Shown here piece after piece: positions 6,001 through 58,084 of a stretch of DNA of 64,000 bases (the first letter of the stretch is position 1; the number at the start of each line of letters is the position of its first letter). Position numbers and translations under genes: made by a program. The stretch covers positions 114,138 through 178,137 of the forward strand of contig JAENRP010000055.1 in assembly GCA_024741835.1 (NCBI GenBank). Direction: 5' to 3'. The notes under the pieces were generated by a model, which was given only the letters and a program-made list of their open reading frames with translations, was not told where the DNA came from and did not search any database. The DNA comes from Diplocarpon mali. Its lineage: Eukaryota > Ascomycota > Leotiomycetes > Helotiales > Drepanopezizaceae.

Positions 6001-7230
6001 CTCCTTGCCATCGGCGACGGTGCCAACGACGTATCCATGATCCAAGCAGCGCACATCGGCGTCGGTATCAGTGGCATGGAAGGCTTGCAGGCAGCCCGGA
6101 GTGCAGACGTGGCCATCGGGCAGTTTAGGTATCTCCGCAAGCTGCTCCTGGTGCACGGCGCCTGGAGCTATCAGCGAGTCTGCAAAGTCATCCTGTACTC
6201 TTTCTACAAGAACATTACCCTGTACATGACTCAATTTTGGGCAAGTAGGCACCCGATTGTCGGTACTCCGCGACTAACGTGTGCCAGTACTCTTTCCAAA
6301 ACGCCTTTTCCGGCGAGGTCATCTACGAGTCATGGACCCTATCTTTCTACAACGTCTTCTTCACCTTCTTCCCGCCCCTCGCCATGGGCATCTTCGATCA
6401 GTTCATCTCGGCGAGACTGCTGGATCGGTACCCGCAACTATACCAGCTCGGCCAGAAGAACACCTTTTTCAAGATGCACTCATTCTTCGCGTGGGTCGGA
6501 AATGGATTCTACCACTCCCTCCTCCTGTACATTGCCTCCGAGCTGATCTGGTGGCTTGATCTTCCACAGGGCGACGGGAAGACTGCTGGCCACTGGGTCT
6601 GGGGTACAGCTCTGTACACTGCCGTGCTGGCCACCGTGCTGGGCAAGGCAGGACTAGTCACCAACATCTGGACCAAATACCACGTCATCGCGATTCCCGG
6701 CAGTATGATCATCTGGATGGTGTTTGTTGCAGTCTACGCTACGGTTGCTCCCTTGCTGGGATTCTCTACGGAGTACGAAGGTGTGGTCCCGAGACTCTTC
6801 ACGAGCCCAATCTTCTGGCTCCAAGGACTGGTACTGCCTGTCCTCTGTCTCGCCAGGGACTTCGCCTGGAAGTAGTGAGTCAGCCGTCGAAAAAATTCGA
6901 TTACTACTAACACACACAGCGCAAAACGCATGTACTACCCCCAAACCTACCATCACATCCAAGAGATCCAGAAATACAACATCCAAGATTACAGGCCCAG
7001 GTACGTGCTGTGTCCTGTCCGCACACGACAAAGGCTAACCTCGAAACAGGATGGAGCAGTTCCAGAAAGCAATCCGCAAAGTGCGCCAGGTGCAGCGCAT
7101 GCGTAAGCAGCGCGGCTACGCCTTCTCGCAAGCCGACGAGTCCCAGACTCGCGTGCTGCAAGCGTACGACACGACGCGCGAACGTGGCCGCCATGGAGAG
7201 ATGGCGAGTTCGCGTCCGGAGGGCAGGTGA
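3037..7230 (+). CDS. P4-type ATPase, phospholipid flippase (Drs2/DnfA class)
   Basis: Four exons (3037-6240, 6288-6874, 6920-7000, 7050-7230) encode about 1350 residues, the usual Drs2 length. The long hydrophilic N-terminus (to about residue 230) leads into the P4 core: DGET actuator loop near 374, PISLFVTLE of TM4 (the P4-specific PISL), the phosphorylation motif DKTGTLT with the aspartate near 602, KGAD nucleotide-binding loop, and GDGANDV hinge near 994. Six C-terminal membrane helices are followed by a basic tail. Enzymes of this class move phosphatidylserine and phosphatidylethanolamine to the cytosolic leaflet of the trans-Golgi and secretory vesicles, with a Cdc50 partner, and support hyphal tip growth. 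Intron 1 (6241-6287) starts with GC rather than GT. Introns 2 and 3 (6875-6919, 7001-7049) are GT-AG. Drs2 subclass rather than Dnf1/2 is judged from length and overall resemblance. Confidence 0.95.
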
Positions 7231-52862: not shown

Positions 52863-53729
<867 letters not shown>

Positions 53730-55270: not shown

Positions 55271-57274
55271 TGAGGATCCAGCAGCGCTGGCCAGTGGTGA
55301 TGGCTGCCCTGGGGGCTGCCAATGCATATACTGACGCGAGGGGAGATGGAATTGCACTTGAACCTGGGGCAGCAGAAGGAGGAGGAGAAGAGGTGCCGTT
55401 GCATCGGAGGGTGTTTGTGGCGGATTCTACAGAGGAGTTGGAGAGGAAGTGGGGCTTTGAGGTTTGTCTTCTCGTCTCTTCCTCTTCCTCTTCCTCTTTT
55501 CTCTTCTCTCTGTACGCTCTTTCTATCTCTCTGTCGGGCGTGTGTGCTGTATCTGTGTTATTTTTGTTCGTTTTTCACGTATTCTCTACTTCTTTTGTGG
55601 CTGCGATCTGGGCGGAAATGGGCCGTTTCTTGCCTTTGATCGACATGCACTTCACTCGTTCCTTGGAGGAAGAGGCGCTGGGTGCCCATCCCGCGGAAGC
55701 GTACAAGTGTACACCGTGTATTTGGTATGCCATGTGTAATGTTAAAGTAACTAAAGATAAGTTGTTTTTTACGATGTTTGTGCTGCGAGGCGGAGCAATC
55801 TCTGAGCTAGGTAGTGCGCGAGTTGAAGCTGCTCTGTCTGCTAGATTGGAAATCAGATTTAGAGGTGCTTCCATGTGACTGGTTCCACTCGTACATTCTA
55901 CGTTCTGAAGGACCACCTTCACACGGCGAGTTCATTTCTTGGATCTTCAAAGTTACCTATCCTGTGGAATCCTAGCCAGATACTCGAGATGCAGGATGCG
56001 AGCAAGTGCTCCACGTCGTACCTGATGTGCTTATACAGCACCAATGCTTCCCTGAGCCGCTCATACATGTCAAGAACCACGCCTGCAGTCTGAGTGTAAC
56101 ACCGAGTAATGTTCTCATCACAGTGGGGCTTCAACGGCGTCAACTCGTTCGCACATCTCGAGCACGTAAAGTGTCTTACGAGACCAGAAAGGCCGTTCGA
56201 CATAGCCATCGTTGGCGTACCGTTTGATACTGCCGTCAGCTATAGACCCGGTACGGTGGATGATGGATGCTGGCAGGCTGGTCCCGAGGGGATGGAGACA
56301 AGAGAGTAGGCTGACGAGAAATAGGAGCCCGCTTCGGCCCTCGTGCGATTCGCGCTGCCTCCTCCCGCCAGACGTCCTTCCGCGGCTTCAACTCCCGGGC
56401 TTCCATGAATCCCTATACCTCCTGGGCCACGATCCTCGACTGCGGTGACATTCCCGTCACTCCGATGGACAACGCCGTAGCCCTCGCGCAAATGACATCC
56501 GCCTACCTGGAGCTCGGGCACCGCGCTCCCCTCTCCTCTACGCTCTCTCACCCCAGGATCATCTCCCTCGGGGGCGACCACAGTCTCGCGCTCGCCGCCC
56601 TCCGCGGTCTTCACAACGTGTACGGCGGCCCAGTCGCCGTGCTGCATTTCGACGCCCACCTCGACACCTGGCACCCCGCCAAGTACCCGAGTCCCTGGCC
56701 CAGCAAGCAGTCCGAGTTCAACCACGGCAGCATGTTCTGGATCGCCTCGAACGAAGGCCTCATCCGCAATGGGTCGTCTGTGCACGCCGGGTTGAGAACG
56801 CGACTGAGTGGGGATGACTGGGCTGATTACGAAGACGATACCCACCAAGGTTTCCTCCGCATCTCCTCGGACGACCTGGACGACCTGGGCACCGCGGGTA
56901 TCATCTCGGCCATCCTTGCCCGCATGGGCACCACCACGCCCGTCTACCTCTCGGTCGACATCGACGTGCTGGACCCGGGCCTTGCGCCCGGAACCGGGAC
57001 CCCCGAGGCCGGCGGCTGGACGAGCCGGGAGCTGATCAAGATCTTGCGGGGCATCGAGGGGCTGAACGTCGTCGGGGCGGATGTTGTGGAGGTTGCGCCG
57101 GCGTACGATGGCGCCGGGGAGCAGACGGCGCTGGCGGGCGCGCAGGTGGCGTACGAGATTCTGACGAGCGTCGTGAAGAGGGGGCTCGCAGACATGGGGA
57201 GGGCGAGTGAGGTGGCGATCAAGGATGGGACGGGGAGCAGGGGGACGGGGGAAAGGGTTCGAGATGAGTTGTGA
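55270..57274 (+). CDS. arginase/agmatinase-family ureohydrolase, secretory, ends RDEL
   Basis: Three exons (55270-55461, 56124-56250, 56325-57274) give 422 residues. An N-terminal signal-like helix (WPVVMAALGAANAYTDA) precedes about 45 variable residues. The catalytic part starts WGFNGVNSFAHLEHVKC and runs through GVPFDTAVSYRPGARFGPRA, GGDHS (Asp191, His192), FDAHLDTW (Asp216, His218, Asp220), HGSMFW, and SVDIDVLDPGLAPGTGTPE (Asp318, Asp320). These are the binuclear manganese ligands of the ureohydrolase fold; the SYRPG and DPGLAPGTGTPEAGG style is that of agmatinases and fungal relatives rather than arginase itself. It hydrolyses a guanidino substrate to urea. The last four residues are RDEL, resembling an ER-retention signal. 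Intron 1 (55462-56123) is unusually long at 662 bp; intron 2 (56251-56324) is normal. Confidence 0.88.
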
Positions 57275-57400: not shown

Positions 57401-57920
57401 CGGAGCGCCGCAGTATTGAAATGGAAGAACCGGTTGTTACATGGGAATTGAATTTGGCACACAGTATGATGGGGGCTGCGCGGGCGGACTCGAGATGCGG
57501 CCATTGCCGACCGGCCACGAGACGCGAGAGTGACGAAGAGTATCTCCCGGACCTGGGCCGCCGCCGGTTCTCTACACCTCTCGTTCCGCACCGAGACTCC
57601 TCGCTCCGGTGAGGCTCGGAACGAATCACGATGGAGCATTCCTCCCCGCTCATCCACGACCAGCACGGATAGAGATGTATATAAATCAATATCAATATCA
57701 ATATCTACCTATCTACATATCTACCTAACTACCTACCCACCTACCCAGGTATATATCTCACCCCTAGCGCAGCCACCCTACCACGTGACCCATCCCAGCC
57801 CAGCCCAAGCCTTCTCGCTTCGCCGTCCCCACCACGCCCGGCCCGCATCGAATCCCGATCCCACGTCGAGCCTGCGCAGACATAAATGCTTATTTCACCT
57901 CCTGACACCACACACTTCCA
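57401..57920. other. intergenic region
   Basis: No gene is supported. There are short ATCAATATCA and CTACCTA-type repeats at 57684-57750. Confidence 0.45.
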
Positions 57921-58072
57921 CCCTCGGTCGTCTAGTTGGTTTATGGCGTCCGGCTGTAATGGTACAGTCTCACCGGAATGTCGCGCGTACGTGGCCCGCC
58001 CTTCTTCTCCATGAAGAGTTTCTCTCAGACGGCTGCTAACAGCTGTACCAGGTTCGACTCGCGCCTGAGGGA
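57921..58072 (+). tRNA. tRNA-Tyr (anticodon GTA) with two introns
   Basis: A complete 75-nt tRNA is assembled from 57921-57959, 57972-57986 and 58052-58072. The acceptor stem CCCTCGG/CTGAGGG (57921-57927 with 58065-58071, one G-U pair) is followed by discriminator A 58072. D-stem GTC/GGC surrounds an AGTTGG-containing loop. Anticodon stem TCCGG/CCGGA has loop CTGTAA plus A, anticodon GTA at 57956-57958. The first intron (57960-57971, 12 nt) is the usual tRNA-Tyr intron after position 37; its TACAG can pair with CTGTA of the anticodon loop. The second, 57987-58051, splits the T-arm: without it GCGC joins G-TTCGACT-CGCGC, a perfect 5-bp T-stem and canonical loop. Box A is at 57928-57939 and box B at 58051-58061. 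A Pol III T-run follows. Confidence 0.85.
57987..58051 (+). other. GT-AG spliceosomal-type intron inside the tRNA-Tyr T-arm
   Basis: The 65-bp insert starts GTACGT, contains TGCTAAC (58034-58040) with the candidate branch adenosine 12 nt before the end, and ends TACCAG. These match the introns of protein genes in the same window in donor, branch and length. It splits the 5' strand of the T-stem between its fourth and fifth bases. No tRNA endonuclease-type structure is expected at this position. Confidence 0.75.
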
Positions 58073-58078
58073 ACATTG

Positions 58079-58084
58079 TTTTTT
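58079..58084 (+). terminator. Pol III terminator of tRNA-Tyr
   Basis: Six consecutive T's begin seven bases after the tRNA discriminator base, the usual Pol III stop signal. It supports the downstream end of the tRNA gene lying at 58072 rather than before the T-arm insert. Confidence 0.8.

Follow-up and report, generated by a model that had tools for sequence, protein, structure and literature searches.

The 64-kb stretch of Diplocarpon mali DNA analyzed here (referred to as the window) contains a nuclear tRNA-Tyr(GUA) gene that is interrupted by two introns of different kinds (Table 1). The 12-nt intron, already indicated by the first-pass annotation and confirmed at this length by ARAGORN, lies at the canonical position 37/38, which is not the case for the insert in the T-arm (nt 52/53). 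The same annotation had described the T-arm insert as starting with GTACGT, ending with CAG, and containing TGCTAAC, whose branch A sits 12 nt before the end, all of which is borne out by the sequence. Its further claim, that excision of the insert restores a tRNA-Tyr, held as well. Joining of the flanking exons regained the T-stem GCGCG/CGCGC, the acceptor stem CCCTCGG/CTGAGGG (with one G-U pair) and A73, and ARAGORN called a tRNA-Tyr(gta) with a 12-nt intron for the joined gene, whereas no call was made when the insert was kept. In the unedited window, ARAGORN detected no tRNA and Rfam nothing at the gathering score. The observation of an interrupted tRNA-Tyr gene is thereby confirmed. A degenerate CTAC/CTAT repeat tract (57700-57760) is located upstream of this gene.

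Table 1 Coordinates of the window tRNA-Tyr gene and its parts, the mRNA introns placed in the window, and interrupted small RNA genes elsewhere in the genome
Feature	Location	Strand	Details
Nuclear tRNA-Tyr(GUA) gene, two introns of different kinds	57921..58072	+	ARAGORN Tyr(gta) once 57986/58052 joined; C1-G72, A73
Exon 1: acceptor 5' strand, D-arm, anticodon arm to A37	57921..57959	+	
Canonical anticodon-loop intron, tRNA endonuclease type	57960..57971	+	12 nt, TGGTACAGTCTC; ARAGORN intron length 12
Exon 2: nt 38, anticodon stem 3' strand, variable loop, T-stem GCGC	57972..57986	+	
Spliceosome-type intron in T-arm, between nt 52 and 53	57987..58051	+	65 nt; site shared by L032, L033 and L081
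Donor GTACGT	57987..57992	+	
TCTCTCAGAC block, directly 5' of branch site	58021..58030	+	Kept in 4/4 Tyr genes; C52 deviates at one base
Branch site GCTAAC (within TGCTAAC, 58034-58040)	58035..58040	+	Branch A 58039, 12 nt after it; in predicted-hairpin loop
Acceptor CAG	58049..58051	+	
Exon 3: G53, T-loop, T-stem 3' strand, acceptor 3' strand, A73	58052..58072	+	
B-box-like GGTTCGACTCG	58051..58061	+	From sequence; first G is the intron's last base
T6 run, Pol III terminator-like	58079..58084	+	
Window mRNA intron	53126-53208		Donor GTGAGT, branch TCTAAC; second-ranked model used
Window mRNA intron	53588-53663		Donor GTGCGG, branch GCTAAC
Window mRNA intron	56251-56324		Donor GTACGG, branch GCTGAC
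Window mRNA intron	6872-7049		Donor GTAGTG, branch GCTAAC
Window mRNA intron	52883-53005		Donor GTGCGT, branch GCTAAT; placed by eye
Elongator tRNA-Met	L034:301-452 (C234)		49-nt insert in variable loop, GTAAGA...ACTGAC...TAG; anticodon intron too
tRNA-Lys(UUU)	L058:128-280 (C77)		65-nt insert at nt 8/9, upstream of A-box, GTAAGT...TCTAAT...TAG
tRNA-Ala(AGC)	L059 (C75)	-	50-nt insert in D-loop, GTACTT...GCTAAT...AAG
U6 snRNA gene L053	C67:136807-136959		51-nt spliceosomal-type intron

The resemblance of the T-arm insert to the mRNA introns of the window, which the first-pass annotation had pointed out, holds for the five introns that could be placed. Intron placement was tried on six gaps in protein-coding genes, and the intron at 52883-53005 was added by eye. 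Two gaps were dropped as intron examples, the first one of the flippase gene because only implausible models were obtained, and the first one of the agmatinase gene because it spans 662 nt and has no clear branch site. The distance from the branch site to the intron end was 10-15 nt in the five introns (counted by eye). The window flippase shares 100% identity over 92% of the query with a Diplocarpon coronariae protein, and the agmatinase 91% identity with a protein of D. rosae; the window thus belongs to D. coronariae or a fungus very close to it.

The genome assembly from which the window originates (49.37 Mb, 676 contigs) was searched for further tRNA-Tyr genes. A similarity search with window positions 57911-58082 as query retrieved three loci on three contigs, namely the window gene and two others (referred to as C52 and C36). 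A pattern consisting of the D-arm and the GTA anticodon found the same three loci and one additional match (L052), which was not tRNA-like by eye. All three Tyr loci carry a T-arm insert at the identical site, with lengths of 65 nt (window), 80 nt (C52) and 59 nt (C36). The first-pass annotation had considered the case that uninterrupted tRNA-Tyr genes elsewhere supply all mature tRNA. A pattern of the joined T-arm and acceptor stem (29 bases, up to three mismatches) had no match in this genome, and the only exception to the interrupted state of the Tyr genes is a weak one. This is a locus in the C108:53597 region (L076), which ARAGORN labelled Tyr(gta), with an anticodon-loop intron of 79 nt and no T-arm insert, and which scored 33.2 bits against RF00005, above the gathering score of 29. 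The window gene, C52, C36 and a fourth homologue described below (L081) all have C1-G72, a mark of fungal tRNA-Tyr, and A73. In contrast, inspection of L076 by eye showed G1-C72, G73, a mismatch in the acceptor and a strained anticodon stem, and its anticodon can be read as GUA or UGU. We regard it as a weak rival Tyr gene.

The fourth homologue was found when the Tyr D-arm pattern was run against prokaryote genome contigs, where it was the only match. It resides on NYXK01000105.1, a contig filed as part of a deltaproteobacterial MAG. Its tRNA and, by eye, the neighboring reading frames suggest that this contig is mis-binned fungal DNA; by eye, a repetitive peptide precursor with KR spacing is encoded on it as well. 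Outside the tRNA gene, no DNA match between this contig and the window was found. Two scans of viral contigs yielded no match, and the two matches of further viral-contig scanning (L082 and L083) were chance matches. L081 has a 92-nt insert at the shared T-arm site with GTAAGT...GCTAAC...CAG. The GTA anticodon, C1-G72, A73, a canonical intron and intact arms after joining were found together in the window gene, C36 and L081. The canonical introns measured 12 nt in the window gene and C36, 15 nt in L081 and 13 nt in C52 (the latter with a shifted join) according to ARAGORN.

Across the six pairs of Tyr genes, 68-75 of 75 exon positions were identical, whereas the T-arm inserts had only 30-48 matches over 73-93 alignment columns. 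For L081 versus C36, 75/75 exon positions and 34/93 insert columns were identical. The inserts diverge while donor, branch site and acceptor are kept. Positions 58021-58046 of the window comprise the TCTCTCAGAC block and a predicted hairpin whose loop holds the branch site, and both recur in L081 and, with changes, in C52; C36 has the block without the hairpin. Pairing of this block with the 3' strand of the acceptor stem is possible and is not claimed here, as minimum-energy folds do not use such pairing. Two pairs of the anticodon stem are changed on both sides in the window gene relative to the other three Tyr genes, as selection on the fold would produce; the same count of paired changes was reached in 29 of 500 shuffles (four sequences).

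These data bear on the possibility that the inserts are non-functional, that the interrupted genes are pseudogenes, and that tRNA-Tyr is supplied by a missing or unrecognized gene such as L076. Some observations are compatible with this explanation. When C52 is joined at GT-AG, A53-C61 replaces G53-C61 and ARAGORN rejects the gene, while it accepts a join one base later, which is not GT-AG. We tend to read C52 as a decaying copy, but its structure could also be a hint against GT-AG cutting at this locus. L076 is called as a Tyr gene above the Rfam threshold, and our tRNA lists are not exhaustive, as Phe, Val and Ile loci were missed. Against these points, the exons of the three own-genome loci and L081 are intact rather than decaying, the window copy has the two compensatory pair changes, and runs of T follow the interrupted genes (at least four T no more than 16 nt from the gene end in six of seven genes, and at +54 in the Ala gene described below). 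Moreover, a gene with similar exons should have surfaced in the similarity search, and L076 differs from the four Tyr genes in the features listed above. The first-pass annotation had also raised the case of orthologous loci that are dead pseudogenes; instead, L081 combines exons equal to those of C36 with a GT-AG insert of its own. Taken together, we consider the pseudogene explanation improbable.

The first-pass annotation had further suggested looking for other tRNA genes with GT-AG inserts, and these exist for elongator tRNA-Met, tRNA-Lys(UUU) and tRNA-Ala(AGC), at three sites other than that in the Tyr genes (Table 1). They were initially noticed as odd or partial tRNA matches and not through a search for GT-AG. 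ARAGORN assigned the expected isotype to each of the three genes after joining. Uncut, the Met gene was still called Met (with a single 71-nt intron), the Ala gene was called Phe, and the Lys gene was not called. The Ala gene may be dispensable, considering its AAG end, the weak donor GTACTT, the distant T run and two paralogues (L023 and L024) that have the same flanking exons by eye and no 50-nt insert. Because the Lys insert is located upstream of the A-box, Pol III might start within it. An additional Lys-like tRNA body with the anticodon CTT (L060; C13, minus strand) had no fully matching upstream acceptor strand within the stretch examined, and a pseudogene or a gene with a more distant exon are the candidate readings. 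Three Phe genes contain the canonical intron only. The first-pass annotation had remarked that mRNA-type introns are known in Pol III-transcribed U6 genes of fission yeast; the U6 snRNA gene of this genome carries one of 51 nt.

The interrupted tRNA genes counted here are a minimum, because the RF00005 searches missed known loci: the search of the own genome was incomplete (63 of 2443 candidates scored) and overlooked the Phe genes, Val L071 and Ile L075. DNA queries with fungal Phe and Asp tRNAs found nothing in this genome, a result that means little because Phe genes exist. A Gly pattern had no match in the same genome, and the pattern matches L061-L064, L067, L069 and L070 were not tRNA-like by eye.

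Splice signals were compared across the seven inserts with settable borders (four Tyr, Met, Lys and Ala; L060 was left out), which range from 49 to 92 nt. All seven have GT-AG ends and an NCTNAY motif with the branch A 11-12 nt from the end. The accessible part of PMC5832005 gives GTRWGT, RCTRAY and YAG as intron signals and 6-36 nt as the branch distance. RCTRAY was found in five of the seven inserts, the Lys branch TCTAAT being outside this motif as is GCTCAC of C52. Donors similar to GTRWGT (at least three of the four variable positions) occurred in six of seven, the exception being Ala with GTACTT. ARAGORN accepted six of the seven joined genes, all except C52. For the window insert, GT/AG at the join that restores the tRNA, the branch distance and the donor all agree with a U2-type intron.

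Intron signals could also have arisen by luck in an unrelated insert, or through an assembly artifact. In 20,000 base shuffles with three boundary slides allowed, GT-AG plus the branch motif appeared in 0.36% of the shuffled window inserts, and a good donor in addition in 0.025%. Per insert, the chance of GT-AG plus branch was 0.0004-0.006 (0.04-0.6% of shuffles), and one case alone would be weak evidence. The pattern recurs, however, in seven inserts at four tRNA sites with a nearly constant branch distance, and the Tyr copies are spread over three contigs and the separate record of L081. The number of independent insert sites is four, because the four Tyr inserts share ancestry. Chance or artifact is already contradicted by this recurrence at independent sites, and we assign it only a minute probability.

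A third alternative is an ectopic tRNA intron like those of archaea, nucleomorphs and Cyanidioschyzon merolae, which the tRNA splicing endonuclease would excise at a bulge-helix-bulge (BHB) fold, with a coincidental GT-AG appearance. Such a fold has a 4-bp central helix flanked by two bulges of 3 nt at the splice sites. Introns in the D- and T-arm do exist in some algal nuclear or nucleomorph tRNAs (PMC4090602, accessible part), the interrupted Tyr genes already have an endonuclease-type intron, and a join shifted by one base from GT-AG gives C52 a better fold. Endonuclease cutting is at odds, though, with the persistence of donor, branch site and acceptor in otherwise diverging inserts. It also contrasts with the frequency of GT-AG, found in 7/7 inserts versus 1/32 anticodon-loop introns called by ARAGORN (seven slides allowed; the control list comprises distinct tRNAs, with some borders and isotype labels being wrong). 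The sole GT-AG case among these controls was the 10-nt intron of L016, obtained by a slide. Anticodon-loop introns were present in 32 of 45 distinct ARAGORN-called genes, with the interrupted ones left out. Finally, a complete BHB central helix of four pairs was not seen in the seven inserts at any of seven slides, in a test run without a positive control. Two joins preserve the tRNA, and at these 0 and 1 of 4 pairs were formed in the window gene, 1 and 2 in C36, 3 and 3 in C52, and 2 and 2 in L081. We therefore give this explanation little credence. Group I and group II introns have a conserved catalytic core and are far longer than 65 nt. A self-splicing intron of these groups was rejected based on the insert lengths of 49-92 nt and because the Rfam scans of the window and nine loci contained no intron family.

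Judged by its sequence features, the T-arm insert is very probably a U2-type spliceosomal intron with GT-AG ends that interrupts a tRNA gene transcribed by Pol III, and the first-pass interpretation of a spliceosomal intron in tRNA-Tyr is supported. It also appears likely that spliceosomal introns have entered the nuclear tRNA genes of a helotialean lineage (T-arm of Tyr, variable loop of Met, nt 8/9 of Lys, D-loop of Ala), that every working Tyr gene has one, and that the spliceosome is by now indispensable for tRNA processing, working on the same precursor as the tRNA endonuclease. Since the three clear Tyr genes all carry the intron, decoding of Tyr would depend on the spliceosome, a claim that applies to the genes found, as the assembly may miss genes.

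From these gene structures we infer transcription, splicing, the order of the steps and the use of the mature tRNA as follows. Pol III would produce a precursor of roughly 160-165 nt that ends in the T run. The intron's final G doubles, in the window gene, C36 and L081, as the first G of an element (58051..58061 in the window) that we take to be B-box-like, based on the B-box consensus, so that this promoter element would stay intact. In the nucleus, the spliceosome would remove the T-arm intron and thereby restore the T-arm, and with it the fold on which trimming of the ends and export depend. Splicing would precede these two steps, because they need an intact T-arm. The 12-nt anticodon-loop intron would be removed separately by the tRNA endonuclease and ligase.

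In teaching, the splicing of tRNA and that of mRNA are treated as two separate systems. If our interpretation is correct, a natural tRNA all of whose genes require both would link translation directly to the spliceosome, and the cell may need its mRNA splicing machine for a basic part of translation, tRNA-Tyr. Such genes would also illustrate the entry of introns into Pol III genes and would explain why standard gene finders can miss these tRNAs, as ARAGORN and Rfam did with the window gene.

The first-pass annotation knew of no established spliceosomal intron in a nuclear tRNA, and we found no report of one in the accessible parts of open-licence PMC papers. For D. coronariae, the cause of apple blotch, the accessible sources list assemblies of 50.3 Mb (NL1, with 136 tRNA genes by tRNAscan-SE; PMC7864672), 51.2 Mb (DC1_JKI; PMC11527701, a nearly complete assembly of 21 contigs) and 54.5 Mb (YL1). 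The accessible parts of PMC7864672, PMC3484023 and PMC11678538 make no mention of T-arm introns, and the word tRNA is absent from the main text of PMC11527701.

Among known systems, the introns of fungal U6 snRNA and U3 snoRNA genes resemble the inserts described here in having GT-AG and RCTRAY within small structured RNA genes, and among small structured RNAs, frequent interruption by an intron is stated to be known for U3 and U6 only (PMC5832005, accessible part). They differ in that the host here is a tRNA, which also needs the tRNA endonuclease, and in that several isotypes and sites are affected. The ectopic introns of nucleomorphs and Cyanidioschyzon merolae are similar in being extra introns in the D- or T-arm, and some tRNA genes of these systems contain two or three introns; apart from these exceptions, D- and T-arm inserts in eukaryotic tRNA genes have mostly been taken as pseudogenes (PMC4090602, accessible part). 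For archaea, a search for non-canonical introns is described in the accessible part of PMC8450103. The C. merolae introns are linked to BHB folds and the tRNA endonuclease, whereas the inserts studied here have the GT-branch-AG arrangement with no 4-bp BHB helix seen. The canonical tRNA-Tyr intron at 37/38 is present in the three own-genome Tyr genes and L081, and the T-arm insert differs from it in position and, presumably, in mechanism. In lichen fungi, spliceosomal introns occur in rRNA genes; these are comparable as mRNA-type introns in genes for structural RNAs and differ in that the host is a Pol I-transcribed rRNA and not a tRNA. One parallel in a tRNA is artificial: Koehrer, Vogel and Domdey (EMBO J, 1990) reportedly placed a pre-mRNA intron in a yeast tRNA gene, where it was spliced by the pre-mRNA pathway. 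That tRNA was engineered, whereas the case in the window would be a natural one.
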